IMG/VR virus record: IMGVR_UViG_3300037882_000411
Coordinates: 1 to 25,799 of that record
Length of the DNA stretch: 25,799 nucleotides
Origin: a virus
Strand: one strand, 5' to 3'
In this document: one piece after another, positions 3,607 through 25,799 of the stretch
How positions within the stretch are numbered: position 1 is the stretch's first letter
Layout of the letters: each line of letters begins with the position of its first letter
Translations under genes and position numbers: made by a program
The notes under the pieces: generated by a model
What the model was told of the DNA's origin: nothing
Seen by the model: only the letters and a program-made list of their open reading frames with translations
Databases searched by the model: none

Positions 3607-3636
3607 TTGACCTTTGGACGATTTGTCCAATACAAG
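3607..3636 (+). promoter_or_regulatory. Rightward early promoter (PR), probably leaderless
   Basis: TTGACC (3607-3612) as -35, an 18-base spacer, and TACAAG (3631-3636) as -10. The spacer is filled by the right operator, so repressor binding would block polymerase directly. The expected transcription start, 6-8 bases after the -10, falls at about 3643, the A of the Cro-like ATG. The mRNA would then be leaderless, or at most carry a couple of leader bases. Confidence 0.65.
3614..3630. promoter_or_regulatory. Repressor operator, right site
   Basis: A 17-bp palindrome TTGGAC-GATTT-GTCCAA, differing from left site 1 by one central base. It occupies the spacer of the rightward promoter. Only one site is visible on the right, against two on the left. 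Confidence 0.83.
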
Positions 3637-9621: not shown

Positions 9622-9960
9622 ATGCTACCCGAACTGACCAGGTGGGAAATGATCGCCTACAGTGCGCTGTACGATGCGGCGGAGGGCAACATGCCATGTC
9701 CGATCAACCTCGACATCGAGATGATGTTCGGTTGCAACTCGGGAAGCACGGTGCCGAAGTACATTCGCCGGCTCGAAGAGAAGGGGTTGATCGTCGTCAA
9801 GCGCTATCAGCGATTCAGGGAGGTTCAGATTGTGGCTACAGGGAAATGGACGAAGCGCTCCGAGGCGATGCATGTGGAACGTCCGCATGTGCCGCGTGGG
9901 GCTGGATCGAGGACACCGGCGCCGACTGATCGGAAGCCGTACAAGACGAGGCGGGTGTGA
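9622..9960 (+). CDS. Winged-helix DNA-binding protein
   Basis: A 112-residue protein with a winged HTH at about residues 8-75: TRWEMIAYSALYDAAEGNMP, then the recognition helix region NSGSTVPKYIRRLEEKGLIV, and the wing KRYQRFREVQIV. A basic Pro/Arg-rich tail follows. The start at 9622 is set by a strong GGGGGAGG about 5 bases upstream; the in-frame ATG at 9589 would overlap the preceding gene without such a site. Its position just ahead of the terminase genes makes it a candidate middle/late gene regulator, possibly acting on the CGCGATTCAA sites. That is untested inference. Confidence 0.72.
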   Translation: MLPELTRWEMIAYSALYDAAEGNMPCPINLDIEMMFGCNSGSTVPKYIRRLEEKGLIVVKRYQRFREVQIVATGKWTKRSEAMHVERPHVPRGAGSRTPAPTDRKPYKTRRV

Positions 9961-10400
9961 TGGCTGGTCTACTACGGACGGAGCAGCGCAAGCGCATCCT
10001 TGAGGAGCTGTCTGACGGAAAATCCTTGCGCACGATTTGCAGGGCTCAGGCGATGCCCGCAATTTCGACGGTGATGGAATGGTGTGCCAAGGAACCCGAG
10101 TGGGCGGAACAGTATGCGCGCGCGAGGGCTTGTGGTGATGATGCGATGGCCGAGGACATTCAGGAAATTTCGGACAACGCCGAACTGGACCCGCAAGATC
10201 GCAAGGTTCGCATTGATGCCCGCAAGTGGTTGCTCGCCAAGCGTCAGCCCAAAAAGTACGGTGACGCCACCACGCTCAAACACGCTGATGCTGACGGCGA
10301 CAAAATCCCGCTCGATGACACCTCGAAGTTCACGCGCCTCGCCGCAATGGTGACGGCAATTCAGGGGCTGGCGCATGAACCTACCGACGACGCCGGCTGA
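9960..10400 (+). CDS. terS: Terminase small subunit (Sf6-like)
   Basis: A 146-residue protein. The N-terminal HTH (LRTEQRKRILEELSDGKSLR, then TICRAQAMPAISTVMEWCAK) and the following EQYARARACGDDAMAEDIQE helix are typical of Sf6 gp1-like small terminases. These form a ring, recognise the packaging site and stimulate the large subunit. RKWLLAKRQPKKYGD is the family's usual central hinge. GTG at 9957 is an alternative start one codon earlier. The 3' end overlaps the large-subunit gene by 26 bases. Confidence 0.87.
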   Translation: MAGLLRTEQRKRILEELSDGKSLRTICRAQAMPAISTVMEWCAKEPEWAEQYARARACGDDAMAEDIQEISDNAELDPQDRKVRIDARKWLLAKRQPKKYGDATTLKHADADGDKIPLDDTSKFTRLAAMVTAIQGLAHEPTDDAG

Positions 10401-12134: not shown

Positions 12135-12166
12135 CGCGATTCAAGCCTGACCTAACCCGCCTTAAC
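12135..12166 (+). promoter_or_regulatory. Putative late promoter, copy A
   Basis: CGCGATTCAA (12135-12144), 14 bases, then GCCTTAAC (12159-12166). The same layout recurs at 18823 and 24859. The CTTAAC element would act as -10 with a start near 12173, leaving a leader of about 20 bases before the TTG start at 12193. Confidence 0.5.
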
Positions 12167-12170
12167 GCTA

Positions 12171-12187
12171 CCTCCATCAACAGGAGG
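12171..12187 (+). promoter_or_regulatory. Hairpin that could hide the ribosome-binding site
   Basis: CCTCC at 12171-12175 is complementary to GGAGG at 12183-12187 with a 7-base loop. The GGAGG is the ribosome-binding site of the TTG-started gene at 12193. Pairing would reduce its translation, provided the transcript starts upstream of or within the CCTCC. Confidence 0.4.
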
Positions 12188-12192
12188 CGCGC

Positions 12193-12396
12193 TTGCTTGC
12201 CATCATCGAAATCCTGCTCGGCCTGTCCGCGCTCTACTCGGGCGGGGCCTATCTCTGGGTCTATGCCGCTGCGCTGCGCAATCGGGCCTCGCTGACGCCT
12301 GAGACTGCTGACGCAATCGAACGCAGCACGTTCCACCTCGGGCTTTGCTTCATCCTCGCCCTTGGCTTCCTCGGCCTGATCGCAGGAGGCCGCTGA
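12193..12396 (+). CDS. Two-span small membrane protein, holin-like candidate
   Basis: A 67-residue protein with TTG start, AGGAGG 5 bases upstream. Two hydrophobic segments lie at about residues 3-27 (IIEILLGLSALYSGGAYLWV plus YAAAL) and 48-65 (FHLGLCFILALGFLGLIAG). They are joined by a charged loop (RNRASLTPETADAIERST). Size and topology fit a class II holin, but location between terminase and portal is not diagnostic, and no endolysin is adjacent. Rare start codon plus possible hairpin suggest low or timed expression. Real gene: likely; holin: tentative. Confidence 0.65.
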   Translation: MLAIIEILLGLSALYSGGAYLWVYAAALRNRASLTPETADAIERSTFHLGLCFILALGFLGLIAGGR

Positions 12397-12578
12397 TGTG
12401 CTCTGCACCCGACATCCCGACCGTGCCTGAGCGCCAGGTCATGAAGCAGCCCGACCAAGGGGCGAAGGGCGTTGAGAAAGACCCGTCGCGCTTCCGTCGC
12501 GCCCTGATGGCTGGCCTCGTCACATCTCCGTCTGGGGTGCTCGGCACTCCTGCCACGATGAAACCGACGCTGGGCTAA
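12396..12578 (+). CDS. Small conserved-type phage protein upstream of portal
   Basis: A 60-residue protein starting MCSAPDIPTVPERQVMKQPD and ending in TSPSGVLGTPATMKPTLG. Short Met-Cys-started proteins with a Ser/Gly/Thr-rich end are often found next to portal or internal-protein genes of podovirus-like phages. GGAGG precedes the ATG, which overlaps the previous stop (TGATG). Basic in the middle (KDPSRFRRALM). The role is unknown and a virion component is possible. Confidence 0.65.
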   Translation: MCSAPDIPTVPERQVMKQPDQGAKGVEKDPSRFRRALMAGLVTSPSGVLGTPATMKPTLG

Positions 12579-12579
12579 C

Positions 12580-14241
12580 GTGGGCAGCTCAACCCGCGAA
12601 TTGTGCGAGCGCCGGCTGGAAGGCATGAAGCGCATTCGCTCGGACTATGAAACCGAGTGGCAGAACATCGCCCGGTTTGCGCAGCCTGCCCGTTCGCGGT
12701 TCATCTCGTCCGACAAGGACAAGGGGGGCAAGCGCCGCCAGTTCAACAACCGGCTGATGGACCCGCATGGCATCGAGGCGTTTCGGACGCTTACCAACGG
12801 TATGACCTCGGGCCTGTCGAGTGCAAGCCGCCCGTGGTTCACGCTGACGCTCAAAGATGACGAGATGGCCGAGGGCGATGGTGTCCGCGAATGGCTCTCC
12901 GATGTCGAGAAGGCGATGTATGCTTTCCTTGCCCGCACGAATTTCTACGGCGCGGTCAAGTCTGGTTACGGCGAGATGGGCCTGTTCGGCACCGAGGGCT
13001 GCGTCATGGTCGAGCACCGCACTGCCGGTGCGGTCTGCCATCCGCTGACGGCCGGCGAGTTCTGGATCGCGACCAGCGATGCTGCCGTGCCTGACACGCT
13101 CTACCGCGTTTGCCCGCTGACCGTGCGCCAAGCCGTGGCGATGTTCGGCAACGATGTCTCGGCAACCGTGCGCCGCATGTACGACGCTTCACAGCATTCC
13201 GAGATGGTCGAATACTACCACGCGATCGAGCCGAACGACGATCATAACCCTGAGAAGATCGGCTCGAAGCCGTGGCGCTCGGCTTATTGGGAAAAGGGTG
13301 ACAGCGCCAACCGCATGACCCGGGAATCGGGCTTCATGGAGCAACCGTTCTGGGCGCCGCGCTGGGATGTTGTGGGCGGCGACACTTACGGCGTCTCACC
13401 CGGTATGGAATCGCTCGGCGCCCTGCGCGAACTGCAAATGCTGACCAAGCGCCGCAACGAAGCGATCGACGCGATGGTCAAGCCCGAGAAGGTCGTGCCG
13501 ACTGGCGTGCGCCTGACTGGCGAACCGGGTCGCACTGTGACCAGCAACGGCGTGGACCGCGATCAGGTCTTTGTGCCGTATCAAATCCCCTACCAGGCGG
13601 TCGCTGCGATCGGTGACGAGATCGACAAGTGCAAGGGCCAGATCGATGGCCTGTCGTTCGCCAATCTGTTCAACGCGATCACGAATATGCAGGGCATTCA
13701 GCCGCGCAACATCGAAGAGATCGCCTCGCGCAACGAAGAAAAGCTGACGCAGCTTGGTCCGGTGATCGAGCGCGTGTCGAATGAAAAGCTGGAAGTCGTG
13801 ATCGACCGCACGTTCGGCATCATGCAGCGCGGCGGATTGCTGCCCCCTCTGCCTGAAAGCCTGATGGAAGCGGGTGGCTCGCGCATCGATGTCGAGTTCA
13901 ACTCGGTCTTGCAGCAAATGCAGCGCATGGTCGGTCTGGGCCAGATCGAACGCACGGCAGCATTCTTCGGCAACAACGCTGCGGTCAATCCCGGCCTGCT
14001 CGACATCATCAACTTCGACGAGATGGGCCGCGAATATGCGAGCCGCACCGGAACGCCGTCCAAGATCATTCGCAGCGAAAAGGATGTCGTCGCGATACGT
14101 GATGCTGCGGCGAAGAAACAGCAGGTGGCCGAGACTGCCGCGATGATGCCCGCCGTCAAGGATGGGGTCGAGGCTGCTCGCCTGCTGTCGGAAACCGATA
14201 TGGGCGGGGGTCAATCGATGCTCGCCGGGATGCTGGGGTAA
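12580..14241 (+). CDS. Portal / head-to-tail connector protein
   Basis: A 553-residue GTG-started protein of the podovirus head-to-tail connecting family (T7 gp8/BPP-1-like). Characteristic stretches are RRLEGMKRIRSDYETEWQNI at the N-terminus, then NGMTSGLSSASRPWFTLTL, FYGAVKSGYGEMGLFGTEG, and the WDVVGGDTYGVSPGMESLGA motif. Later come VKPEKVVPTG and SNEKLEVVIDRTFGIMQRGG in the helical wing and stem. Twelve copies would form the DNA entry channel at one capsid vertex and dock the tail. Length is typical. It starts 1 base after the preceding stop codon. Confidence 0.93.
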   Translation: MGSSTRELCERRLEGMKRIRSDYETEWQNIARFAQPARSRFISSDKDKGGKRRQFNNRLMDPHGIEAFRTLTNGMTSGLSSASRPWFTLTLKDDEMAEGDGVREWLSDVEKAMYAFLARTNFYGAVKSGYGEMGLFGTEGCVMVEHRTAGAVCHPLTAGEFWIATSDAAVPDTLYRVCPLTVRQAVAMFGNDVSATVRRMYDASQHSEMVEYYHAIEPNDDHNPEKIGSKPWRSAYWEKGDSANRMTRESGFMEQPFWAPRWDVVGGDTYGVSPGMESLGALRELQMLTKRRNEAIDAMVKPEKVVPTGVRLTGEPGRTVTSNGVDRDQVFVPYQIPYQAVAAIGDEIDKCKGQIDGLSFANLFNAITNMQGIQPRNIEEIASRNEEKLTQLGPVIERVSNEKLEVVIDRTFGIMQRGGLLPPLPESLMEAGGSRIDVEFNSVLQQMQRMVGLGQIERTAAFFGNNAAVNPGLLDIINFDEMGREYASRTGTPSKIIRSEKDVVAIRDAAAKKQQVAETAAMMPAVKDGVEAARLLSETDMGGGQSMLAGMLG

Positions 14242-14246
14242 CGGCG

Positions 14247-14429
14247 ATGTGTGGACTGATGGGCCTTGCTGGATTGAAGGGTGGCGGCATCAAGGGCGCG
14301 CTGGGTGCATCACTTGGCGGCCTCGCTGGTCTGGCGCTGACGCAAAAGAAAGACAAGTCGAAGCAGCGCTACGGCGGCGACAACGGTGATGGTACCATGT
14401 CCGCTGCTGGCAACATGGCGTCCATGTGA
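14247..14429 (+). CDS. Small Gly/Ala-rich protein
   Basis: A 60-residue protein starting MCGLMGLAGLKGGGIKGALG. Residues 1-33 are small and hydrophobic with glycine-zipper-like spacing and could insert in a membrane. The remainder is basic then polar (QKKDKSKQRYGGDNGDGTMS). It is one of three Met-Cys-started proteins in the late region. GTGA overlap with the next gene. Function unknown; possibly a minor virion or ejection component. Confidence 0.6.
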   Translation: MCGLMGLAGLKGGGIKGALGASLGGLAGLALTQKKDKSKQRYGGDNGDGTMSAAGNMASM

Positions 14430-14749
14430 CCCAATCCGACGCCGAATTCCTGATCGCTCAGCCTGAGTTCCGCCGCTTCCTTTACGCCGCGATTCAAACC
14501 GCTGGCATCCTCGGCCATCACGCTCCTGCCAATGGACAACAAGGGCGTGATCTCGGTCATTTCGAGGGGCGTCGGAGTCTGGGGTTTGATCTGCTGCTCA
14601 TGGCCGATGCTGGCCAACCCGAGCCGCTTCGTTCGCCGCAAGCGCTGGCAACGATCGATGCAGTCATCCGAGAAGCTCTGAACCCCCCGAAGGAGAAGAA
14701 ACGTGACCGAAGAGACGACAACGCCCGATACGACGAACTCCCCGAGTGA
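14426..14749 (+). CDS. Bbp19-like phage protein
   Basis: A 107-residue GTG-started protein resembling the Bbp19 family of Bordetella phage BPP-1. The pattern FRRFLYAAIQTAGILGHH, then an FEGRRSLGFDLLLMADAG helix, is the conserved core. In BPP-1-type head modules this gene precedes the scaffold, capsid and cement genes, the order seen here. The last 47 bases overlap the next gene, and the protein tail there (KEKKRDRRDDNARYDELPE) is highly charged. Molecular role unknown. Confidence 0.7.
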   Translation: MTQSDAEFLIAQPEFRRFLYAAIQTAGILGHHAPANGQQGRDLGHFEGRRSLGFDLLLMADAGQPEPLRSPQALATIDAVIREALNPPKEKKRDRRDDNARYDELPE

Positions 14750-15407
14750 GCCGCCCGTCGCTGCGCCCGCTGCCGAAGCCGCAACGCCGACGGAAGGCGC
14801 GAAGGACGAAGCCGCGCCGGCCAGCGATGGCGAAACAAGCGTCCTTGGTGGAGACGTAGAAGCTGACAAGGCCGACGATACCGCTGCCGATGCTGACGTC
14901 ACACCCGCTGGCCCGCCTGAAAAGTATGAGCTGGCTGCGGAAGGTGTCGAGATCGATCCCGCCATGCTCGAAGAGGCCACGCCTATCTTGCGGGCGCTGA
15001 ACCTGAACAACGATCAGGCCAATCAGCTTATCCCGGTAGCGGCCAAGCTGGTGACGCAGACGCAGGAAAAGACCTTGCAGGCGCTGGTCGATGCCGGCGC
15101 AGCGCAGCGCAAGGACTGGTTCGACGCTTTCGTGGCTGATCCCGACATCGGCGGCGCCAGACGCGAAGAAACTGAACATCTCGCAGCGAAGGGAATGGAC
15201 GCTCTCGGCTATGCCAAGGGCCATCCGTTCCGTGTCGCGCTCACCGAATCCGGCTTCGGCAATCATCCCGACATGATCCGTGCATTCCGCGCGCTCGGCG
15301 AGATGACTGGTGAGGACGGTAGCTTCGTTCGTTCCAACGACGGGGTGAAAGAGGGCGATGCCCTTACCGAACTCTATCCCAACAATCGCAGGAGTAAGCA
15401 GTCATGA
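14703..15407 (+). CDS. Scaffold-like capsid assembly protein
   Basis: A 234-residue GTG-started protein with AAGGAGAAG upstream. Residues 1-80 are a disordered, Ala/Pro/Glu/Asp-rich acidic arm (TEETTTPDTTNSPSEPPVAA and following). Residues about 95-200 are helical (MLEEATPILRALNLNNDQAN and following), with DWFDAFVADPDIGG as the most conserved-looking motif. Acidic arm plus helical core, directly before the major capsid gene, is the usual form of podovirus scaffold proteins such as T7 gp9. The stop overlaps the capsid ATG (ATGA). No protease motif is seen. Confidence 0.82.
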   Translation: MTEETTTPDTTNSPSEPPVAAPAAEAATPTEGAKDEAAPASDGETSVLGGDVEADKADDTAADADVTPAGPPEKYELAAEGVEIDPAMLEEATPILRALNLNNDQANQLIPVAAKLVTQTQEKTLQALVDAGAAQRKDWFDAFVADPDIGGARREETEHLAAKGMDALGYAKGHPFRVALTESGFGNHPDMIRAFRALGEMTGEDGSFVRSNDGVKEGDALTELYPNNRRSKQS

Positions 15408-16435
15408 CTGTTCTCGCATCAAATGCGCTTACGTGGGCGGATCTGCTTACGAAGCAGGGCGCTGACGGCAAGATCGGCACCGTTGCCGAAGTTCTCAATC
15501 AGCACAACGTCGTCATGCGTGACGCCGCGTTCATGGTTTGCAACAAGGGCACCGAACACGAAACTCTCGTGCGCTCGGGTCTGCCTGATGTCGCATGGTC
15601 CACGGTCGGCGGTTACACCACGCCGTCGAAGAGCCAGACCCGCAGCCAGAAGTTCACGACCGGCTTCTGCCGTTCGATGAGCCAGGTTCCGCAGGACATT
15701 CTCGATCTCTCGGACGACGAAGCCGCGCTTCGCCTTTCGGAAGCCGGCCCGCACCTCGAATCGATGGCGCAGGAATTCGATTACATGTTCTTCAACGGCA
15801 ACCTTGGCAACGATCCGCTCGGGTTTGACGGCATCGCGGCCTATTACAACCGCCTGCCCGTCTCGACCAACAACGCCTCGAACCAGGTGGTCGGCGCTGG
15901 CGGCGTCGGTTCGGACAACACCTCGATCTATCTGATCCGCCACGGCGAGCAGCAGACCTCGGTGATCATTCCCAAGGGCATTCCGATGGGCATCGATCGC
16001 ATTGACCACGGTACGCAGCGCGACACTGATGGTTCGGGCGGCGTTCGCTTCGTGCAGGAAGAGGAATTCAAACTGCACGGCGGCGTGGCGATCAAGGACT
16101 GGCGCGCAAACAGCCGCATTGCCAACATCGACGTTTCGGCGGCGACTGCTGGCTCGGTTGATCTCATGGACTACATGGTCACGGCCTATCACCGCGCCCG
16201 GATGCCGAAGCACAACTTCGAAATCGAGAACGCGGCGTTCCTTGGCGCCAAGGCCACTTGGTACATGAACAGCACCCTGTTCGAAGTGCTCGACAAGCAG
16301 TCGCGCAACTCGACGCTACACCCGTCGCTCCAGCTTTCGGTGCGCGAAGTTCAGGGCGAGGAAGTCACCACCTTCCGCGGCCTGCCGATCCGCGTGACCG
16401 ATGGCATCACCAACACTGAAACGCCGCTTACGTAA
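15404..16435 (+). CDS. Major capsid protein (BPP-1/epsilon15-like)
   Basis: A 343-residue protein matching in style the gp7-like major capsid proteins of epsilon15 and BPP-1 (HK97 fold). The N-terminal stretch LTWADLLTKQGADGKIGTVA leads to EVLNQHNVVMRDAAFMVCNK. Central motifs are VPQDILDLSDDEAALRL and QEFDYMFFNGNLG, followed by the GIAAYYNRLP segment. There is no N-terminal propeptide-like segment, consistent with a separate scaffold gene. AGGAGTAAGCAGTC ahead of the ATG supplies the ribosome-binding site. It would form the icosahedral shell with the cement protein encoded next. Confidence 0.93.
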   Translation: MTVLASNALTWADLLTKQGADGKIGTVAEVLNQHNVVMRDAAFMVCNKGTEHETLVRSGLPDVAWSTVGGYTTPSKSQTRSQKFTTGFCRSMSQVPQDILDLSDDEAALRLSEAGPHLESMAQEFDYMFFNGNLGNDPLGFDGIAAYYNRLPVSTNNASNQVVGAGGVGSDNTSIYLIRHGEQQTSVIIPKGIPMGIDRIDHGTQRDTDGSGGVRFVQEEEFKLHGGVAIKDWRANSRIANIDVSAATAGSVDLMDYMVTAYHRARMPKHNFEIENAAFLGAKATWYMNSTLFEVLDKQSRNSTLHPSLQLSVREVQGEEVTTFRGLPIRVTDGITNTETPLT

Positions 16436-16458
16436 TCGGCCCGGATAGGAGAAAGAAA

Positions 16459-16893
16459 ATGGCACTCTTCGATGAAGCCGGCCTGTTCAGTGAGAATCAG
16501 GTCATCACCGCTACGGCGGTTTCCACCAACTCGATCGACTTCGGCGCTGCCGGAACCCCGGTCGGGGCACTCGGCGCGGTGGTTGGCGATCTCGGCCTGT
16601 CCGAGATCAACATCTTCGCAATCGTCACCGAGGTTTTCGCCACGCTGACCTCGCTCAAGATCGCGGTCGAGATGGACGACAACTCGTCGTTCTCTACGCC
16701 GACGATCCTTGTCGAGAGCGAAGTCGTGGCGGCGGCAACGCTGGTCAAGGGCTACAAGTTCCGTATTCCGGCAGTGATCCCGGAAGGCGCAACCGAGCGC
16801 TATATCCAGCTTCGCTACACCGTCGCTGGTTCCAACGCGACGACCGGCAAGATCTTCGCCGGCATCGTTGCATCGCGTCCGGCTGCTGTCTGA
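16459..16893 (+). CDS. Bbp16-family capsid cement protein
   Basis: A 144-residue beta-rich protein that fits the Bbp16 cement family of BPP-1-like phages. It starts MALFDEAGLFSENQVITATA, then VSTNSIDFGAAG, a strand-rich core with the EMDDNSSFSTPTILVESEVV segment, and GYKFRIPAVIPEGATERYIQ then LRYTVAG before a short tail. In BPP-1 this protein clamps capsomers from outside and stabilises the expanded head. A strong TAGGAG site lies about 10 bases upstream. The stop overlaps the next ATG (TGATG). Confidence 0.88.
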   Translation: MALFDEAGLFSENQVITATAVSTNSIDFGAAGTPVGALGAVVGDLGLSEINIFAIVTEVFATLTSLKIAVEMDDNSSFSTPTILVESEVVAAATLVKGYKFRIPAVIPEGATERYIQLRYTVAGSNATTGKIFAGIVASRPAAV

Positions 16894-17066
16894 TGCCTCG
16901 CTACCGGGCACTGCTCCGGGGGCAGACACCAGACGGGTCTTGGCATCGGCCTGGCGCCGAGTTCGAGACTGACGCTCCGCAAGGCGCGTGGATGGAATTG
17001 CTTGAAACCAAGCAAGAGCCGTCACCCAAGGCGAAGGGCGCGAAAGTGCCCGCTGCCGACGACTGA
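16893..17066 (+). CDS. Small protein downstream of cement gene
   Basis: A 57-residue protein starting MPRYRALLRGQTPDGSWHRP, with a beta-like first half and a Lys/Pro-rich disordered tail (KQEPSPKAKGAKVPAADD). The TGATG coupling to the cement gene supports it. Similar short proteins follow capsid genes in many phages, but I cannot name the family. Function unknown. Confidence 0.65.
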   Translation: MPRYRALLRGQTPDGSWHRPGAEFETDAPQGAWMELLETKQEPSPKAKGAKVPAADD

Positions 17067-17073
17067 CAGGGGG

Positions 17074-17099
17074 TGGCCGGGGGTTTCGATCCCCGGCCA
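17074..17099. terminator. Strong intergenic hairpin between head and tail modules
   Basis: TGGCCGGGG (17074-17082) pairs perfectly with CCCCGGCCA (17091-17099) around an 8-base loop GTTTCGAT. It lies in the 38-base gap between the last head gene and the first tail/surface gene. No T-run follows, so it may be a partial or Rho-assisted terminator, or a 3' end-protecting hairpin that raises capsid mRNA levels. Confidence 0.55.
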
Positions 17100-17104
17100 A
17101 TCTC

Positions 17105-17614
17105 ATGGAACAACTGCGCCAACTCACCCGGCTTAATTTCTCGGAGACGCCTGACCCGCGGGGTCAATCTGCGCCCGATACGCCTCGCGCTGCTGAGGCT
17201 GATCTATCTGGATACCTCACCGAAGCCATAGCAAACACGCTCTATGAACCGCTGGGCGGCAGCGCGATCTCCGGCACCTACACGCCGACACTGACCAACG
17301 TGGCGAACCTTGACGCATCGACGGCCTATTCGTGCCAGTACATGCAAGTCGGCAGTGTCGTCACCGTATCGGGCCGCGTGGATATTGATCCGACCGCCAC
17401 AGCAACAGACACACGCCTTGGCATCTCCCTTCCGGTCGCATCGAACCTTGCGGCAGGCAACGAATGCGCTGGCACAGCCTTTGCGTTCGGCGTGGCTGGC
17501 CAGGGCGCGGCGATCATGGGGGATGCGACCAACGACCGCGCGGAAATGCGCTGGGTGGCTGGCGACACGACCAACATGGCGATGCATTTCAGCTTTCAGT
17601 ACCGGGTGATCTGA
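17105..17614 (+). CDS. Beta-rich phage structural protein (tail/surface)
   Basis: A 169-residue protein. Residues 1-50 include a Pro/Ala-rich linker (PDPRGQSAPDTPRAAEADLS). Residues 55-169 form a beta-rich module (ISGTYTPTLTNVANLDASTA, YMQVGSVVTVSGRVDIDPTA, GISLPVASNLAAGNECAG, FSFQYRVI at the end). The same type of module is found at the C-termini of many phage tail-fibre and surface proteins. It probably forms a trimeric or decorating domain; target unknown. The start is 5 bases after the hairpin, without a clear ribosome-binding site. The stop overlaps the next ATG. Confidence 0.7.
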   Translation: MEQLRQLTRLNFSETPDPRGQSAPDTPRAAEADLSGYLTEAIANTLYEPLGGSAISGTYTPTLTNVANLDASTAYSCQYMQVGSVVTVSGRVDIDPTATATDTRLGISLPVASNLAAGNECAGTAFAFGVAGQGAAIMGDATNDRAEMRWVAGDTTNMAMHFSFQYRVI

Positions 17615-18051
17615 TGGCCGTTTCCTATCTCAACGCGGGCGGCAAGACTGGCGGCAAGGGCCTCGTGCTCTGCTTGTCCGGTGATACCAAGCCAGCGGCC
17701 CTGGCTGGATGGACGTTGATCGAGACGGACACCGGCAATCAGTTCGTTGTCGTCACCGGGGAATGGTCTGCGGCCAGTGCTGGGGGCAGCTCAAACACTG
17801 GCGGCGTTGCCACCATCACTGTGGCCAATCGCCGTTATGAGCACAGCGAAACAGTTGCAGCTATCGGCGTGACATCGGCAAGCCGGGTAATGATCGGTCT
17901 CGCGCCGACGCTCGACAGTGACGAAAACACCGCCGAACTGCTTGACCTTGCATCCTGCGCGGCAACGCCGGGAACAGACACCATCACCATCACCGCGACA
18001 TTCTTGCAGCCGGTTGCCGGTCCCATAAAATTCAATTGGAGTGCTTCATAA
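17614..18051 (+). CDS. Putative structural protein, Gly/Ser/Thr-rich
   Basis: A 145-residue protein starting MAVSYLNAGGKTGGKGLVLC, with many Thr, Gly and Val residues and a beta-strand pattern (VATITVANRRYEHSETVAAI, TDTITITATFLQPVAGPIKF). The start at 17614 overlaps the previous stop (TGATG); an in-frame start at 17464 would overlap the preceding gene and is rejected. It lies between two similarly beta-rich genes. Likely virion surface or tail component. No family recognised. Confidence 0.62.
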   Translation: MAVSYLNAGGKTGGKGLVLCLSGDTKPAALAGWTLIETDTGNQFVVVTGEWSAASAGGSSNTGGVATITVANRRYEHSETVAAIGVTSASRVMIGLAPTLDSDENTAELLDLASCAATPGTDTITITATFLQPVAGPIKFNWSAS

Positions 18052-18818
18052 TGGCGAAACTTTCACGCGATCTTGCAACGCCTACGGGTGGCTCGACCGT
18101 TCTGCATCCCCGCGAAACAATCATTGGCAGCGGCACGATTGGCGCGCTTAATGCTGAGGTGATCATTCCGGTTGACGGGTGCGCTTCGGTATCGCTCGAC
18201 ATTCGCGGTACGTTCTCGATGACGCTGGAAGTCGCTGGCACGGTTGACGGCACGAATTATACGCTGATCCCGGTGCGCCCGGTCAACCTTGCGTCCGTTG
18301 CCTATGTCGCGGCGGTGACTGGCACGGCGGCGGGAACGTGGGTTGGCAAATGCGCGCCGTTCCGCTCTGTTCGTGTGCGCTGCACGGCTTACACGTCCGG
18401 TTCGGCAAGCACTACGCTGGTTGGCGATACCGCGCCACTGGACGACACGCTGCAAGGCATGATCGCGCCGCTCGCCGTGACCGCCACGGGTGCGGCCAGT
18501 GCGGCTGTCACGCTGACCTTGCCCGCTCCCGGTGCTGGTCTGCGCCAGTACATCACCTATATCGCCATGGTTCGCAGCGCCACGGCCCTGCTGACCGCAT
18601 CAGCAACGCCCACGGTTGTCACCACCACCAATCTCCCCGGCACTGTGGCGTTCACGTTCGGCGCGGACGCGGCGGCGCAGGGCGTTGACAAGTTCATTCG
18701 TGAGGACTTCGCCTATCCGCTGGCCGCATCGGCGCAGAATACTGCCGTGACCGTGGTTGCGCCGGTTGCCACGGGTTCGATCTGGCGCCTGACTGCCGGG
18801 TATTACGTCGCGCCGTGA
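18051..18818 (+). CDS. Putative structural protein, beta-rich
   Basis: A 255-residue protein starting MAKLSRDLATPTGGSTVLHP. GGAG 9 bases upstream and a one-base TAATG overlap fix the start. Composition is dominated by Ala, Thr, Val and Gly. Two similar-looking halves can be seen: residues 25-130 (VSLDIRGTFSMTLEVAGTVD and following) and 140-255 (VTATGAASAAVTLTLPAPGA and following), suggestive of stacked beta-sandwiches. It probably belongs to the capsid decoration or tail spike set. The putative late promoter copy B lies directly after it. Confidence 0.65.
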   Translation: MAKLSRDLATPTGGSTVLHPRETIIGSGTIGALNAEVIIPVDGCASVSLDIRGTFSMTLEVAGTVDGTNYTLIPVRPVNLASVAYVAAVTGTAAGTWVGKCAPFRSVRVRCTAYTSGSASTTLVGDTAPLDDTLQGMIAPLAVTATGAASAAVTLTLPAPGAGLRQYITYIAMVRSATALLTASATPTVVTTTNLPGTVAFTFGADAAAQGVDKFIREDFAYPLAASAQNTAVTVVAPVATGSIWRLTAGYYVAP

Positions 18819-18822
18819 TGAC

Positions 18823-18855
18823 CGCGATTCAACCCCGCCCCGCTGCGCCCTAATC
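18823..18855 (+). promoter_or_regulatory. Putative late promoter, copy B (leaderless)
   Basis: CGCGATTCAA (18823-18832), 14 bases, then GCCCTAATC (18847-18855). With CTAATC as -10, the expected start is at about 18862-18863, the A of the gp11-like ATG (18863). No ribosome-binding site precedes that ATG. The sequence CGCGTC just before the ATG is shared with copy C. Confidence 0.55.
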
Positions 18856-18862
18856 CCGCGTC

Positions 18863-19501
18863 ATGGCGACGACCCTCATCTCCTGCTATAACGAAGCGCT
18901 GGCACTGGTTGGTGCCGGTGACATTGCCGACATCGATGAGGCATCGATCGAGGCGCGCGAATGCAACCGATTCGGCCCTGCGCTGCTGCTGGAAATTGGC
19001 GAGTGGGCAGATTGGCCGTTCAAGGTGCGCCGTGCTGCGCTGGCCAGCGTGACCAATGATCGCCCTGCCGAATGGCTCTATGCCTATGCGCCGCCGTCTG
19101 GTCTGGGCCAGCCCATTGCCCTGCGCTCGGTCGAGGATGATGCTACGTCGCTGCCGGAGAACGGCCCCTATCCCTTCCCGCTGCAAGACGCTTATCCGCT
19201 GCGCTATCTGGTCGAGGGTGGCAAGATTTACGCAAACACCGAGACGGCAACGCTGGTTTATACGAGCAATGTGATTGAGGTTGGTGATCTTGAGCCGCTG
19301 GTGCGCCGCGCCTTCGTCGATGAACTGGCCGCGCGCATCTATATGCCGATCAAGAAAGACCCAAAGATCACCTTCGAACTCCGCAAAGCCGCGATGATGT
19401 CGAAGAACATTGCGATTGCCAATGAACAGAACCGCAGCCCGAGGGTCGCAACTCGGTACGTCTCCGAGGCAGAATATGCCCGCATGGGGCATGGCGTGTG
19501 A
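18863..19501 (+). CDS. Tail tubular protein A (T7 gp11-like)
   Basis: A 212-residue protein of the podovirus tail-tube type. ATTLISCYNEALALVGAGDI at the N-terminus, EIGEWADWPFKVRRAALA, and the RRAFVDELAARIYMPIKKDP segment match the gp11/adaptor family style. It would form the ring between portal and nozzle. No ribosome-binding site precedes the ATG, but the putative promoter copy B places the transcript start on it. The 3' end overlaps the next gene (GTGA). Confidence 0.87.
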   Translation: MATTLISCYNEALALVGAGDIADIDEASIEARECNRFGPALLLEIGEWADWPFKVRRAALASVTNDRPAEWLYAYAPPSGLGQPIALRSVEDDATSLPENGPYPFPLQDAYPLRYLVEGGKIYANTETATLVYTSNVIEVGDLEPLVRRAFVDELAARIYMPIKKDPKITFELRKAAMMSKNIAIANEQNRSPRVATRYVSEAEYARMGHGV

Positions 19502-20154
19502 CCTTCCGCAAGACGCAGCCGAATTTCAGTCGCGGCGTTCTGGCGCCTGAACTCTATTCGCGCTTCGATGTCGATGCCTATGGCGCGGCAGTCAAGCAGG
19601 CGACGAATGTGGTCGTGCTCAAGTTCGGCGGTCTGACCAAGCGCCCGGGTACGCGCCTGGTTGCCGAGGTGCTTGATCCGACTGACGGCAATCGGCTTGT
19701 TCCTTTCCAGTTCTCGCTCACGCAAACCTATGCGCTGGAAATGGGGCAAGGCTATATGTCGCCCTGCGCCAATGGTGGCCGCGTGGTCGAGCCTGAACTG
19801 GCGATTGTCACCGTGTCGAACGCTGCCGCTGCCGAGATCGAGGTGCTTTATCACGAACTGGTAGTCGATGATTTCATCTACATCACCGGGATTGCCGGCG
19901 AGATTGGCGACTTGCTCAATGGCCGCGCATGGCAGGTGCAATCCGTGGTCGATGCCGATCACTTCACGATCAACGCTGACACGGCCACACTGGCCGCGTT
20001 CACGACGGCAACCGGCGGCATCACACGCGCCGCTCCTGCACCGCCTCCGACCCCGCCTGTGGTTCCCGCTCCCGTACCTGATCCAGCCCCGCCCGAGGAT
20101 TACTTTGGCGGCGGCATAGACTGGCTCACAAGCGATGGCACGGCGATCCGCTGA
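19498..20154 (+). CDS. Tail tubular protein B (T7 gp12-like), N-terminal half
   Basis: A 218-residue GTG-started protein. TFRKTQPNFSRGVLAPELYS, QATNVVVLKFGGLTKRPGTR and VPFQFSLTQTYALEMGQGYM are characteristic of the N-terminus of gp12-like nozzle proteins. Residues about 105-180 hold an inserted beta domain (YHELVVDDFIYITGIAGEIG...). The protein then ends in a Pro-rich linker (residues about 183-203) and a short tail. In related phages this continues into the next domain within one protein. Here it stops with TGATG into the following gene, in a different frame. Confidence 0.82.
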   Translation: MTFRKTQPNFSRGVLAPELYSRFDVDAYGAAVKQATNVVVLKFGGLTKRPGTRLVAEVLDPTDGNRLVPFQFSLTQTYALEMGQGYMSPCANGGRVVEPELAIVTVSNAAAAEIEVLYHELVVDDFIYITGIAGEIGDLLNGRAWQVQSVVDADHFTINADTATLAAFTTATGGITRAAPAPPPTPPVVPAPVPDPAPPEDYFGGGIDWLTSDGTAIR

Positions 20155-21968
20155 TGGGTATTGCGCGCATCTACAAGGTCGGCTCGCCCTTCAACGGCGT
20201 CGAATTGCCCGAGATCGACTTCGAGCAAACGGCGGATACGATGTATTTCGCCCATATCGATCATGCGCCTTCGAAGCTGGTGCGCGGCGGGCATACTGAC
20301 TGGACGTTCTCGGACATCACCTTCGGGCCGACGATTGACGCGCCGACGGGTTGCACCGGGACGCCGACGATTGCTAACACCGACACCGAGAACACCGGCA
20401 ACAACTATTTTCCCCAGCCGGGGACCTACATCATCACGGCGGTCAACGATGACACCGGGCAGGAAAGCCGTGGCTCGAATGAAAGCACGGCGACGAATGA
20501 CCTGACGCTCAAGCGCAATTACAACGACGTGACGTGGGATGCCGTGACGGGAGCCACGCGATACAACATCTACAAGGCCGAGAATTCGCAGTTCTTCGGC
20601 TATATCGGCACAACCGATGGCCTGACATTCCGCGATGACAATATCGGGCCAGCCTTGGATCGCGCGCCGCCGCAAGCCTATAACCCATTCCCCGGCGCTG
20701 ACGATTACCCCTCGACCGTCACCCTGTTCGAGCAGCGGTCACTCTGGGCGCGCTCTCGCAATGTGCCGCATGGCATCTGGGGGTCGCGCACGGCTCAGGC
20801 GGAAAGCATGGATCGATCGCGGCCCTTGCGCGCTGATGATAGCCTTGCGCTGACCATCGTTGCGGGCCGGGTCAACTCGGTCAATCAGCTCGTATCGTCC
20901 ACCTCGTTGTTGGCGCTGACTTCGGATTCGATCTTCACCATCGACGGCGACGGCTCTGGGGGCGTTCTCAGTGCGGCTTCGGCCCCTGCGGCACGACGTC
21001 ACCTTGGCATCGGTGGATCGCGCCTGTCGCCTCTGGTGGTCGATAACGTGGTGTTCTTTGCGCCATCGGTCGGGTCGTCTGTCCGCTCGATTGGTTACAG
21101 CTTCGAAATCGACGGCTTCAAGTCGAACGATGTGTCGATCTTTTCGCCGCATTTCTTCGAGAGCCTTGAAATCGTGTCGTGGTGCTATGCCCGCGAACCC
21201 CGCTCGCTGGTCTGGGCCGCGCGCTCGGATGGCAAACTGCTGTGCTTCACTTGGGAGCAGGAGCAAAACGTCTGGGGCTGGACCTTCTGCGAGACGGACG
21301 GCGATGTGAAATCGGTTTGTTCGATCAGTGAGGACGGTGAGGATCGCGTCTATCTGCTGGTCGATCGCATGGTTGACGGCGTGTCGAAGCGGTTTGTCGA
21401 GCGCATGGCCTCGCACAAGTGGGACGATGTTGCCGACACCTGCTTCATGGATTGCGCGATCTCGGCTGAGTTCGCCACGGCGCGCGCTACGTTCTCCGGC
21501 CTGTGGCATCTCGAGGGGCGCACTGATGTCTGCGGGATAGTCGATGGCGTGGCTGTCGAGGATCTGACGGTGACGAATGGCTCTGTGACGCTGCCTGAGC
21601 ACGTCGGCACCGGGAGCAAGGTGTCGTTCGGTATTCCGTTCCAGGTCGATATTGAAACGCTGCCACTGCGCATTGAGGCCAAGGACACCGGGGCCAACAT
21701 TGGCCGGCGTCAACAGGTCGGTGAGATCGTGCTGTCGCTGCGCAATACGCGGTCGGTTCTGGCTGGCATCGACGATACGCACCTCTATCTGGTTAAGTCG
21801 CGCACCTCGGAAGCCTATGGCTCGCCAGATGATCTCATGAACGGCGACGATTACGTGGTTGCCGCTGCCAACAAGGCGGGCACCGAGATCAAGGCGCATA
21901 TTCGCCAGACTGCACCGCTGCCGCTGACCCTGCTGGGCGTGTCGCTCGATGCGGTGGTGAATGGCTGA
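20154..21968 (+). CDS. Tail tubular protein B (T7 gp12-like), C-terminal part
   Basis: A 604-residue protein. The N-terminus (GIARIYKVGSPFNGVELPEI, then DTMYFAHIDHAPSKLVRGGH) corresponds to the interior of gp12-like nozzle proteins. Residues about 60-180 form a fibronectin-III-like insertion (WDAVTGATRYNIYKAENSQF, then FGYIGTTDGLTFRDDN). The rest is the beta-propeller-like nozzle body: RSLWARSRNVPHGIWGSRTA, LLALTSDSIFTIDGDG, VWAARSDGKLLCFTWEQEQN and VWGWTFCETDG. It would form the hexameric tail tip. Overlap with the preceding half (TGATG) suggests re-initiation. Confidence 0.85.
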   Translation: MGIARIYKVGSPFNGVELPEIDFEQTADTMYFAHIDHAPSKLVRGGHTDWTFSDITFGPTIDAPTGCTGTPTIANTDTENTGNNYFPQPGTYIITAVNDDTGQESRGSNESTATNDLTLKRNYNDVTWDAVTGATRYNIYKAENSQFFGYIGTTDGLTFRDDNIGPALDRAPPQAYNPFPGADDYPSTVTLFEQRSLWARSRNVPHGIWGSRTAQAESMDRSRPLRADDSLALTIVAGRVNSVNQLVSSTSLLALTSDSIFTIDGDGSGGVLSAASAPAARRHLGIGGSRLSPLVVDNVVFFAPSVGSSVRSIGYSFEIDGFKSNDVSIFSPHFFESLEIVSWCYAREPRSLVWAARSDGKLLCFTWEQEQNVWGWTFCETDGDVKSVCSISEDGEDRVYLLVDRMVDGVSKRFVERMASHKWDDVADTCFMDCAISAEFATARATFSGLWHLEGRTDVCGIVDGVAVEDLTVTNGSVTLPEHVGTGSKVSFGIPFQVDIETLPLRIEAKDTGANIGRRQQVGEIVLSLRNTRSVLAGIDDTHLYLVKSRTSEAYGSPDDLMNGDDYVVAAANKAGTEIKAHIRQTAPLPLTLLGVSLDAVVNG

Positions 21969-22426
21969 TGGATAGCCGGGTCCGGTTGGCTCCGGCGCAA
22001 TCGAAGCATATCGGCAGGATCGCGCGCAACATGCGGGCCATCGACGCGGAAGAGTGTGCCGCGTTCGGTCGCGCGCCAAAGTCTGCGCTGCGGTTCTCGC
22101 TGTTCTCAAGCACAAAGGCATGGACGGCAATGGTCGATGGCAAGCCTGAAGCAATGTTCGGCGTGGTCGTGGAAAGCGCTTTGGACCAAGAGGCCGCGCC
22201 GTGGTTCCTCGGGACGGATGAAGTCTATCGGCATGGGCGCGAGTTGCTGATGTATGGTCCGGGCATGGTGTCGCGGCTGTGCGATTCTAATTGGAAGCTG
22301 GCCAACCTAGTGTCCGCGAAGAACATGCGGGCAATCCGCTTGCTGGATCGCTGGGGCTTCACGGTGGCGGACGATGTGCAAATGATTGGCGGTGTTCCCT
22401 TCCGACGTTTTGAGAGGGCCTGCTGA
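21968..22426 (+). CDS. Gp13-like protein (DUF2833-type, GNAT-like)
   Basis: A 152-residue protein resembling T7 gp13 (DUF2833) and GNAT-fold proteins. IGRIARNMRAIDAEECAAFG opens the fold and APWFLGTDEVYRHGRELL lies in the middle. NLVSAKNMRAIRLLDRWGF is the typical terminal GNAT strand/helix (Asn, Arg, Leu, Gly-Phe pattern). Gp13 is needed for assembling the internal core proteins in T7. TGATG coupling on both ends places it just before the internal-core genes, as in T7. Acetyltransferase activity is not implied. Confidence 0.82.
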   Translation: MDSRVRLAPAQSKHIGRIARNMRAIDAEECAAFGRAPKSALRFSLFSSTKAWTAMVDGKPEAMFGVVVESALDQEAAPWFLGTDEVYRHGRELLMYGPGMVSRLCDSNWKLANLVSAKNMRAIRLLDRWGFTVADDVQMIGGVPFRRFERAC

Positions 22427-22929
22427 TGTGCATTCCTGCTGCCGCCGCTGCCCTTGTCGCCGCCGGAATGTCCGCTATGGGAACCGGCGTTGCCGCGCTG
22501 TCCGCCAAGGCTCAAGGTGACTATCAGGCCAAGATCGCTGAACGCAACGCGGCAATGGAGCGCGAGGCATCGCAGCAGGATCAGCAGAACACACGCGAGG
22601 AAGCGCTGGCCCATTACCGCAACGTCGCCAAGCTGAAAGGCGAGCAGATCGTCGGTGCTGCGGCGAATGGCGTGGGTGTGGACTTCGGCACGGCGGCTGA
22701 CACGCTGGCCGATACCGACATGCTGGCGCGCGAAGATACCAAGCGCATCTATTCGCAGGCTGGGCAAAAGATGAAGGGCCGCTCCATTGCCGCGTCGAAC
22801 TACATGGGCGAGGCTTCGGCGCAGCGATCGGCTGGAACGGCTGCGCTGGTCGGCGGCGCGTTCAATATGGGTTCGACGATCCTCGGCGGGGTTTCGCAGT
22901 ACAAGAAACTCAAGGCGGGGAGCAAGTAA
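22426..22929 (+). CDS. Internal virion protein B (T7 gp14-like)
   Basis: A 167-residue protein starting MCIPAAAAALVAAGMSAMGT, a hydrophobic N-terminus like T7 gp14 (also Met-Cys). A long charged helix follows (YQAKIAERNAAMEREASQQD, QQNTREEALAHYRNVAKLKG), then GAAANGVGVDFGTAADTLAD. A second apolar region (GTAALVGGAFNMGSTILGGV) lies near the C-terminus. In T7, gp14 is ejected first and forms an outer-membrane channel for DNA entry. TGATG coupling to gp13-like. Confidence 0.85.
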   Translation: MCIPAAAAALVAAGMSAMGTGVAALSAKAQGDYQAKIAERNAAMEREASQQDQQNTREEALAHYRNVAKLKGEQIVGAAANGVGVDFGTAADTLADTDMLAREDTKRIYSQAGQKMKGRSIAASNYMGEASAQRSAGTAALVGGAFNMGSTILGGVSQYKKLKAGSK

Positions 22930-24858
22930 TTGCCGCGCATTCCTACATATCAGCCCAATCAGGTCGGCCCGGTCGAAAGCACTGGCGCCCGGTTCCGTGC
23001 CGCCGATAATGGCGGCGGGATTGGTGCGGCTATCGGACAGGGATTGCAGGGCCTGGGCAAGGCTGGGGCTGATTTCATCACGGCGCAGGATCAGATTCAG
23101 GATCAGTTCGATGATACTTATGCGCGTCGTTTCGCATTGGATTTCGATGCCGCAACAAAGCCGGTGATGACGCAATATAGCGCGCAACAGGGCAAGAATG
23201 CCATCGATGCCGCAATGCCGACGCAAGAGGCGCTGACGAAACTGCGTGAGGAAACGCTGGCTAAGGCCAGCAACCCGCGCATGAAGCGTTACCTCGAAGA
23301 GCGCCTTGCCGAGCCGTACAGCCGTTATTCGTCGGGCATTGTCAGCCATTCACTCGGCCAGCAACAGGTCATGGCGGAAGAGACGGCACTGTCTGAAAAG
23401 GCTCTGGCGATCAATGATGCCGCCGGGTCTTATGCCAATCCTCAACTGGCCGCGACTAAGAAGGCTGAGGCGCTGGATGCTGTGCGCCGTGTGGGCGCGC
23501 TCAAGGGTTGGGACACGAAGAAACTCAAGGCCGAAGAGCTGGCGGCGACGACGGCCATTCATACGACTGCTTTTGATCTGATGCGGAGCGGTGCAAAAGA
23601 AGACATTGACCGTGATGCTGCCTATCTCGCCGCGCACAAGGACGAGATGACCGCCACTGCCTATGCCAATGCGCTGGGTGATCTGGCCGAGCCGCTGCGT
23701 AAGCGCGAGGACACTGCCGACTTCTGGCGCGCGATTACCCCGACTGCCGACGCTGCCCCCGCTCCTGGCGGTACGCCTGCGTCCGGTGCTCCGGTTCGGC
23801 AGGCAACTGCGGCTGAGATCAAGCCGGCGCTGCTGGGCGTGTTCGGCAAAGGAACCTACGTCGGGGATAATGCCAAGCATTCGAAATATACGTCGAGCGG
23901 CAAGGTGTCTGACCATACTGTCGATCGTGCGCTTGATTTCGTCCCCCCCGGCGGCATGGGGAAATACACCACTTCGCAGGCTGAGGCGCTGATCACGTCG
24001 GAACTGGCACGACGCGGCCTTCGCATTCGCCGCAATGCCAATGGAACGCCGCAATTCTTTGGCCCCGGTCGTCATGCGAAAAATCCGGGTGATCACGATG
24101 ACCACTATCATGTGGCATGGGAAGTTGATCCCAAGGCGACGGGCGGACAGGGCGTTGACAATGAGCGTCCGCAGCAATTTGACAAGGATCAGGTCTATAA
24201 CCGCATTGACGCGCTGGCCGCGAAAGAGAAGTGGTCGCCTGAAAAGATCGAGCGCGTGAAGGCGATGGGCGATCAAGAGATTCGCCGCAATGAGGAGCTG
24301 GACAGCAGGCAAAAGCGCGCCGCTGACGAAGCTGCTGCCGATATCATGCTGGGCAAAGGCTCTGGCTTCACCTCGAAGAACCTGATCCCGGCTGAAACGT
24401 GGTCGAAAATGTCTGTCGGCGCGCGCGCGTCTGCTGAGGCGGCGATTGAGCGCAACCTTGCGCCGGTTGCCGCAAAGCCGAACGGGCCAGCGGCAATGTT
24501 GCTTAACCAGATGAAGACACTGATGCCGCAAGAGTTTGCCAATCAGGACTTGAGCAAGATCGTTGGCCAAGTCTCGCAGGCCGAACTTGATACATTCCTG
24601 ACCGAGCAGACCAAGATCAAGCGCGATAATGGCGACATCGTGAAGCGGCGCACCGAGATCAATGCCGTCGTCAACTCACAATCCACGTTCGGCGGGCTCA
24701 AACTGAACGATGCTGAGCGGGCATCTGTGGCGCAAATGATGGAGGCGCAGGAAGTTGCCGCAATCAGTGGTGGCAAGACCCCTGACCGTGCGGCTTCGTA
24801 CAGGGCGGCAATCGGTATTGTCATGATGTCGCGCGCCGTAACGCCTCAGGGCAACTGA
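22930..24858 (+). CDS. Internal virion/ejection protein with M15-like peptidase motif
   Basis: A 642-residue TTG-started protein directly abutting the previous TAA; GGGGAG upstream is the ribosome-binding site. Residues 1-260 are long, Ala/Glu-rich helices as in T7 gp15-like ejection proteins. Residues 265-290 are a Pro/Ala linker. Residues about 295-400 resemble the M15 D-Ala-D-Ala/L-Ala-D-Glu peptidase fold: SDHTVDRALDF gives Ser327, His329 and Asp336, and GDHDDHYHVAWE gives Asp391 and His392/His394, matching SxHxxxxAxD and the terminal H-x-H. The usual Gly in the first motif is Asp here. Residues 410-642 are helical again. It probably cuts peptidoglycan during genome ejection. Helical ejection role: good; catalysis: likely. 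Confidence 0.82.
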   Translation: MPRIPTYQPNQVGPVESTGARFRAADNGGGIGAAIGQGLQGLGKAGADFITAQDQIQDQFDDTYARRFALDFDAATKPVMTQYSAQQGKNAIDAAMPTQEALTKLREETLAKASNPRMKRYLEERLAEPYSRYSSGIVSHSLGQQQVMAEETALSEKALAINDAAGSYANPQLAATKKAEALDAVRRVGALKGWDTKKLKAEELAATTAIHTTAFDLMRSGAKEDIDRDAAYLAAHKDEMTATAYANALGDLAEPLRKREDTADFWRAITPTADAAPAPGGTPASGAPVRQATAAEIKPALLGVFGKGTYVGDNAKHSKYTSSGKVSDHTVDRALDFVPPGGMGKYTTSQAEALITSELARRGLRIRRNANGTPQFFGPGRHAKNPGDHDDHYHVAWEVDPKATGGQGVDNERPQQFDKDQVYNRIDALAAKEKWSPEKIERVKAMGDQEIRRNEELDSRQKRAADEAAADIMLGKGSGFTSKNLIPAETWSKMSVGARASAEAAIERNLAPVAAKPNGPAAMLLNQMKTLMPQEFANQDLSKIVGQVSQAELDTFLTEQTKIKRDNGDIVKRRTEINAVVNSQSTFGGLKLNDAERASVAQMMEAQEVAAISGGKTPDRAASYRAAIGIVMMSRAVTPQGN

Positions 24859-24890
24859 CGCGATTCAACCCCTAGCGCTGGTGCCTATGT
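24859..24890 (+). promoter_or_regulatory. Putative late promoter, copy C (leaderless)
   Basis: CGCGATTCAA (24859-24868), 14 bases, then GCCTATGT (24883-24890). CTATGT as -10 gives a start at about 24897-24898, the A of the downstream ATG (24898). No ribosome-binding site is visible there. CGCGTC immediately before the ATG matches copy B. Confidence 0.55.
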
Positions 24891-24897
24891 TCGCGTC

Positions 24898-25799
24898 ATG
24901 CCCGCACCTGATCCGTTCGCCTTTTCCAAGCAATTCGATGCGTTCGGCCAGCCGGTCACGCAAGTCGATCCTGTCGAGGAAGCGCGCCGCCGTGATAATG
25001 GCATCGCCATCACCATCAACGCAGCGCCTGCTCCCGATATCGTCGGAAAGGCAACGCGCGCAGCTCGCAAGATTGGCGTGGCTCCGGGTCTGGTGGACGA
25101 TCAGGTCGATCAGGCGCTGCGCGGCATCAACATCAAATCCCTCACCGAAACCATGTCCAAGTTCCCGGTCTATGGGAAGTTCTTCGGCGACAACCCGCGC
25201 GCTGCCGTAATGGCGCAGGAGGATGGGAAAAACCTGTCGAAGATCGGCGCGGCATGGGAAGGTTTCAAGGAGTTCGGTCGCGGCATTCCGGGTGCACTCA
25301 ACTCGGGCTATCAGGCATCGGCCAAGGGGCTGAATGACCTCTATCTGTCGATCGATGAGGCGGTTTTGTCGGTCGCCAACCCGAACCATGCCCGCGAAAT
25401 GCTCAATCGGCGCGAGGCTGCGTCTGCTTCGTTCGCCGCGCGCAGTGAAGCGGCAATGCCCAAGTCTGACAGTTTCGTGGTCAACTCGGCGCTGCAAGGC
25501 ATCCGGTCTGTCCCTACGTCACTGACGGCGATGGCCGCTGGTCTGGTGACGCGCTCGCCAAACGCCAGTGCTGGTGTGATGGGAGCCATGACCGGCGCCC
25601 CTGCTTATCGTGAAGCTCTGGCAAAGGGTCTGCCTACCGGGCAGGCGCTGCAATACGGCGTGGAGCAGGGAACGATTGAGGCGCTGACCGAACGCATCCC
25701 GGCAGCAACGTGGTTGACCGCGCTGACCAAGAAAACCCCGTTTGGCAAAGCCATCCTGACTTCGCTGGCGCAGGAATTGCCGGGTGAACAGGTCGCCAC
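24898..25799 (+). CDS. Large virion (ejection) protein, N-terminal 300 residues
   Basis: Open from the ATG at 24898 to the right edge (300 codons and two bases), so truncated by the window. The start MPAPDPFAFSKQFDAFGQPV is followed by a helical region with a semi-hydrophobic patch at about residues 105-140, then small-residue-rich segments (TSLTAMAAGLVTRSPNASAG, VMGAMTGAPAYREALAKGLP). LTERIPAATWLTALTKK and the final SLAQELPGEQVA follow. This arrangement is what I associate with the N-terminal region of very large phage internal proteins (T7 gp16-like or polyvalent). No enzymatic motif lies in the visible part. The ATG has no ribosome-binding site. Confidence 0.7.
   Translation, partial: MPAPDPFAFSKQFDAFGQPVTQVDPVEEARRRDNGIAITINAAPAPDIVGKATRAARKIGVAPGLVDDQVDQALRGINIKSLTETMSKFPVYGKFFGDNPRAAVMAQEDGKNLSKIGAAWEGFKEFGRGIPGALNSGYQASAKGLNDLYLSIDEAVLSVANPNHAREMLNRREAASASFAARSEAAMPKSDSFVVNSALQGIRSVPTSLTAMAAGLVTRSPNASAGVMGAMTGAPAYREALAKGLPTGQALQYGVEQGTIEALTERIPAATWLTALTKKTPFGKAILTSLAQELPGEQVA

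Follow-up and report, generated by a model that had tools for sequence, protein, structure and literature searches.

Which factor reads a short element that recurs, base for base, ahead of the virion genes of a phage, and what does the element do there? The question is raised by the IMG/VR record IMGVR_UViG_3300037882_000411, whose complete 25.8-kb sequence (positions 1 to 25,799, hereafter the window) carries the ten-base sequence CGCGATTCAA four times on the plus strand, at 12135, 14488, 18823 and 24859. We consider it probable that this motif forms the upstream part of a dedicated late promoter found in a clade of Epsilon15/BPP-1-like podoviruses and prophages, that the promoter is transcribed by the host RNA polymerase (RNAP), and that a small winged-helix protein encoded at 9622 is the best candidate for its reader.

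The four copies compare with a mean of 0.075 and a maximum of one in 400 shuffled windows. A preliminary description had placed three of them (12135, 18823 and 24859) in gaps between genes, and each of these is indeed exact, on the plus strand and intergenic; it overlooked the fourth, equally exact copy at 14488, which lies inside a gene ahead of the protease and capsid genes. The same description had paired the ten-mer with a second half, GCC(C/T)T, after a fixed 14 nucleotides (nt), and this part had to be abandoned. The copy at 24859 is off by one base (GCCTA), and what related phages conserve is only a TA, 18 nt after the eight-base box CGATTCAA, so GCCYT was dropped as the second half-site. 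Taken alone, and with up to three mismatches allowed, the GCCYT pattern has five matches in the window against 2.55 expected, which is not above chance; the excess in the window therefore resides in the exact ten-mer and in its conservation. Nor is the spacing strictly constant, as box and TA are 18 nt apart at 12137 and 18825 but 17 nt apart at 24861. In its revised form, CGATTCAA-N17/18-TA, the bipartite element occurs three times in the window, compared with a mean of 0.015 in shuffled windows.

The claim had been made to depend on the motif being present in the syntenic gaps of relatives, and it is there that the box recurs. In the first relatives, whose capsid protein is 75% identical to that of the window, and in a distant one (L016, 39%), CGATTCAA is found four to seven times per phage and, one antisense match excepted, on the late strand: before the portal gene, inside the gene that precedes the protease, and before the genes for tail tubular protein A, the internal virion proteins and the tail fibre. 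The two bases preceding the box are phage-specific (CG, GT or TT). A portal-based scan added 80 further loci, for about 100 related contigs overall, and these 80 contain 181 forward and 14 reverse copies; in the 54 loci of group A the box lies on the late-gene strand, with 198 copies forward and eight in reverse. Loci that lack CGATTCAA have undergone concerted change and carry CGATCCAAA, TGATTCAA or GGATTCAC at the same places, with the same promoter anatomy and a pronounced strand bias (38 forward and no reverse copies of CGATCCAAA in group B, 20 and none of TGATTCAA in group C). The named relatives Jess A, BPP-1, AF, BcepC6B, DC33 and ctEw122 yielded two stray CGATTCAA matches and no bipartite form.

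The conserved columns around the box delineate the anatomy of a predicted promoter. Among 130 non-redundant group-A sites the strong positions outside the box are a T (93 sites) and an A (117 sites) after the 18-nt spacer; G or T is preferred immediately 5' of the box, and a weaker A (66 of 130, at the reporting threshold) stands exactly 12 nt past the T. Across all lineages a C precedes this A position in 125 of 212 non-redundant sites. If the T is -12 and the A is -11, the box therefore spans -38 to -31 and the predicted start (+1) is an A preceded by C. These are not the features of a sigma-70-type promoter: the GATTCA of the box agrees with TTGACA at two of six positions, only T-12 and A-11 of a -10 element are conserved, and a sigma-70 consensus scan of the window returned no consensus match at any motif site. 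The preliminary description, too, had noted that the motif does not match the sigma-70 -35 consensus.

In the window the first of these putative promoters (12135-12176, plus strand) has its box at 12137-12144 and, after 18 nt, T-12 and A-11 at 12163-12164, with a predicted start at about 12175-12176. It would serve the gene at 12193, encoding a small membrane-like protein and preceded by a Shine-Dalgarno sequence (the leader carries GGAGG ahead of the start codon), together with the portal region, and a copy occupies the same position before the portal gene in relatives. The second (18823-18863, plus strand; box 18825-18832, 18-nt spacer, TA at 18851-18852) and the third (24859-24898, plus strand; box 24861-24868, 17-nt spacer, TA at 24886-24887) differ in that the predicted +1 is itself the A of a start codon, namely the ATG at 18863 of tail tubular protein A and the ATG at 24898 of a large internal virion protein.

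This coincidence of start site and start codon is not peculiar to the window. At 41 of 164 sites the ATG of an open reading frame (ORF) of at least 60 codons lies exactly 12 nt past the T, any other offset accounts for at most six, and the codon is always ATG. For spacers of 17 nt, as at 24861 in the window, in L098 and, within the GGATTCAC group, in L030 and L032, the distance from T to ATG remains 12 nt, so that the position of the start codon is tied to the TA and is independent of the box. A Shine-Dalgarno-like run is missing upstream of the ATG in 48 of 51 non-redundant cases, and the messages initiated at such sites, including those of the window genes at 18863 and 24898, are thus often predicted to be leaderless. 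Other transcription units of the clade have a leader with a Shine-Dalgarno sequence.

The copy inside a gene (14488-14528, plus strand) has its box at 14490-14497 and a predicted start at about 14528, with CA instead of TA at 14516-14517. It lies within the ORF 14426-14749, upstream of the protease gene at 14703 and the major capsid gene at 15404, where its box is read as the codons ATT CAA (Ile-Gln). The homologous in-gene sites use ATT CAA in 50 of 70 cases and ATC CAA in 17 of 70, the latter in the CGATCCAAA lineage. Both ATT and CAA belong to the minor codons of these genomes, with a joint expectation of 3.7%, and the in-gene box variant shifts in concert with the other sites. Retention of minor codons and the switch between lineages together argue that the DNA itself is under selection here, and the in-gene copy may act as a weak promoter that serves the protease and capsid genes.

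Since the box differs from the -35 elements of the host, the upstream contact would have to come from a phage protein. The preliminary description had already suggested a phage activator, perhaps the product of 9622, and the distribution of this gene supports the suggestion. The gene (9622-9960, plus strand) lies directly 5' of the small terminase gene (terS) and encodes a protein of 112 amino acids. Of 27 records, 26 match a profile of the family; the remaining one is a fragment that begins in the capsid region. In all 24 loci with enough upstream sequence three ORF families are present, the portal, a 61-residue gene before the portal and the winged-helix gene, while the terminase subunits are not universal among them; when nine near-whole genomes are compared, every family common to all of them encodes a virion component, with the winged-helix gene as the one exception. 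A search of 50,697 phage records returned no match to the family, and neither the gene nor the repeated sites turned up in the six named relatives. The AlphaFold model is a confident winged helix (predicted local distance difference test score 83.8), whose top Foldseek match is a LexA-DNA complex, albeit with a weak E-value of 0.018, and the profile match to LexA has an E-value of 7e-4. Model and profile agree in describing 9622 as a LexA-type winged-helix DNA-binding protein. The N-terminal DNA-binding domain of LexA (PDB 3jso, 1lea) is its best fold match and weak profile match; unlike LexA, 9622 has no peptidase or dimerisation domain, its proposed site is asymmetric and non-palindromic, and it is proposed to activate.

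The following scheme would accommodate these observations. The winged-helix protein would be made from an earlier operon that ends in the terminase genes and would bind CGATTCAA, or the variants CGATCCAAA, TGATTCAA and GGATTCAC, at the -35 position (-38 to -31). Thus placed, it would recruit or redirect host RNAP, whose sigma factor would need only the minimal -10 element T-12 A-11 beyond a spacer of 18 nt, or sometimes 17, for initiation at the +1 A. Four to seven such promoters would drive the units for portal, protease and capsid, tail tube, internal virion proteins and tail fibre, presumably late in infection, and in some units, that of the tail-tube gene among them, the transcript would begin with the A of ATG and be leaderless. 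On the strength of its gene's distribution 9622 is the likely activator. A more far-reaching version, in which a single winged-helix protein without a sigma-remodelling partner replaces the -35 contact of sigma, the -10 element is reduced to TA, virion messages start at AUG and all this holds across the clade, is one that we advance only tentatively.

Several observations weigh against this scheme. The link between protein and promoter is one of co-occurrence. The box is asymmetric, whereas dimeric LexA or MarR proteins bind palindromes, and families weakly related to 9622 carry repressor labels in PHROG. The recognition helix varies strongly among phages that share the same GTCGATTCAA box and gives no clean covariation signal; the sole suggestive change, and the only substitution of this kind, is in the wing, where Gln is replaced by His in four of four proteins associated with GGATTCAC, compared with Gln in 63 of 67, and it represents a single event. 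Covariation of helix and box was for this reason set aside as a line of evidence. In L104 and L126 no 9622 homologue was detected even at relaxed settings, though more than 4 kb of upstream sequence is present, and these two are possible exceptions; the other loci without a detectable gene are mostly short or have little sequence upstream of the portal gene. At the in-gene sites, finally, T-12 is mostly replaced by C, with A-11 kept in 19 of 28 non-redundant cases.

One alternative is that the late promoter is read by another phage factor, such as a diverged sigma or an unannotated activator, and that 9622 does something else. A strong -35-type box combined with a minimal TA recalls the economy of alternative-sigma promoters, and in the lineage with the GT box no covariation is seen between box and recognition helix. 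Against this, a sigma region 4 domain (PF08281) scored over the cut-off in only one of 27 records, although a highly diverged sigma could escape such a search, and the nine near-whole genomes contain no other universal non-virion ORF family. A phage-encoded sigma system was rejected on the former count, and another phage factor seems unlikely overall.

Rather less likely still is that 9622 is a repressor and the box its operator, covering the -35 region and keeping the late genes off in the lysogen. The LexA-type fold and the weak PHROG labels ('transcriptional repressor') would fit this role. The 9622 gene, however, sits in a forward operon directly before terS, away from the repressor region, and the asymmetric box stands in place of any recognisable -35 element, which would leave a repressed promoter with nothing upstream to be recognised by.

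The sigma-like spacing of box and TA could also mean that a host alternative sigma factor or regulator reads the box and that the phage has joined a host regulon, but the host genomes make this very improbable. In the 4.9-Mb host genome G005, a metagenome-assembled genome (MAG), all six CGATTCAA-N18-TA matches lie inside the prophage and none outside it; both matches of G037 are on the prophage contig, and four of the six in G131 are in the prophage region. Outside prophages the bipartite element is missing or occurs at close to the chance frequency. It does not represent a class of host promoters, and the box changes in concert between phage lineages. A host regulon was accordingly rejected.

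Promoters of a single-subunit phage RNAP, which many dispersed late promoters and the ATAG at some sites (reminiscent of the T7-type CTATAG) might bring to mind, can practically be discarded, since the polymerase domain PF00940 was found in none of 27 records while T7 served as positive control, and the bipartite 18-nt layout does not fit; the modified polymerase once offered as an alternative to an activator is likewise disfavoured, with phage polymerase absent and no clade-wide sigma gene. Chance or coding coincidence, for which only the in-gene copy with its Ile-Gln codons could be cited, is untenable in view of the window and clade statistics, the strand bias and the fixed TA and ATG spacing across lineages.

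The phage itself is an Epsilon15/BPP-1-like podovirus, as judged from its GP7 capsid protein (PF20911), its head-tail connector or portal protein (Head-tail_con, PF12236) and the order of its tail module; besides capsid and portal it encodes tail tubular proteins A and B and large internal virion proteins. GenBank phages of the same broad kind have capsid identities of at most about 40%, so that none of the named phages there is a close member of the clade. One relative resides as a prophage in a MAG, and the adjoining Flp-pilus genes are nearest to Sphingomonas among the plasmids searched; one host of the clade is a sphingomonad-like bacterium. The tail tubular protein A gene (PHROG 394) extends over 18863-19501, and that of the large internal virion protein, with an LPD22 domain (PF18834) at the start of its product, from 24898 to 25799, where it runs off the window; both are on the plus strand. 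The large terminase subunit (10375-11961) is about 28% identical to that of G001/L003 (5080-6627 in L003) and 76% to that of G004. Different types of this subunit thus occur among phages that have portal, capsid and late promoters in common, which suggests that the packaging genes have been exchanged. Just 3' of a primase-like gene, 300 bases at 8956-9253 hold eight forward and four reverse GTCCAC/GTGGAC repeats, a dense cluster that looks like replication-origin iterons and that may be read by the product of ORF 4500-5281, which has a DnaA-type C-terminal DNA-binding domain (PF08299, E-value 6e-8). Two copies of the palindrome TTTGGACGAT(C/T)TGTCCAA (3237-3255 and 3613-3631) flank the cI-like gene region and are likely repressor operators. 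In a gap between capsid and tail genes, GGCCGGGGGTTTCGATCCCCGGCC (17075-17098) forms a perfect hairpin of high GC content that lacks a T run.

For about 100 environmental phages and prophages, to which the phage collection searched offers no close relative that is both isolated and named, the analysis predicts to the base where late promoters lie. It also names one gene, 9622, as the candidate switch. Four box types with their regulator sequences form a natural matched set from which to learn how winged-helix proteins choose their sites. Virion messages predicted to be leaderless by design bear on how alphaproteobacterial ribosomes handle such messages, and the more far-reaching version of the scheme, if true, would amount to a minimal switch for late transcription that consists of one protein, is coupled to leaderless translation and is conserved clade-wide.

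No matching description of the box sequence or of phage late leaderless promoters was found in the literature searched, but parts of the system have parallels elsewhere. Lambda Q, ArpU/RinA and PBSX Xpf are late activators encoded next to terminase genes, and they work through a single late promoter or by antitermination. The 9622 protein is likewise a small regulator at the end of an early operon beside terS; unlike them, it has a LexA-type winged helix and would serve four to seven dispersed late promoters. In T4 middle promoters the MotA box (TGCTTtA) has its centre at -30 and is separated by 12 ± 1 bp from an excellent -10 element (PMC2988021), and sigma is appropriated by MotA and AsiA (PMC2988021, PMC6755090). 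Both systems place a phage box instead of a -35 element before a host-type -10, and the T4 box is read by a small monomeric phage protein, as is proposed for the present one; here, however, the box spans -38 to -31, 18 nt before a minimal TA, and MotA has a double-wing fold (PMC2988021), in contrast to the LexA-type winged helix of 9622. Leaderless messages starting with AUG are common in alphaproteobacteria, with 375 in Caulobacter (PMC4117421) and 171, all AUG, in Sinorhizobium (PMC3616915). The predicted phage messages would resemble them in beginning at the A of AUG, in using ATG alone and in the absence of a Shine-Dalgarno sequence, but would differ in that leaderless initiation is here a conserved trait of virion genes, bound to a single phage-specific class of promoter.

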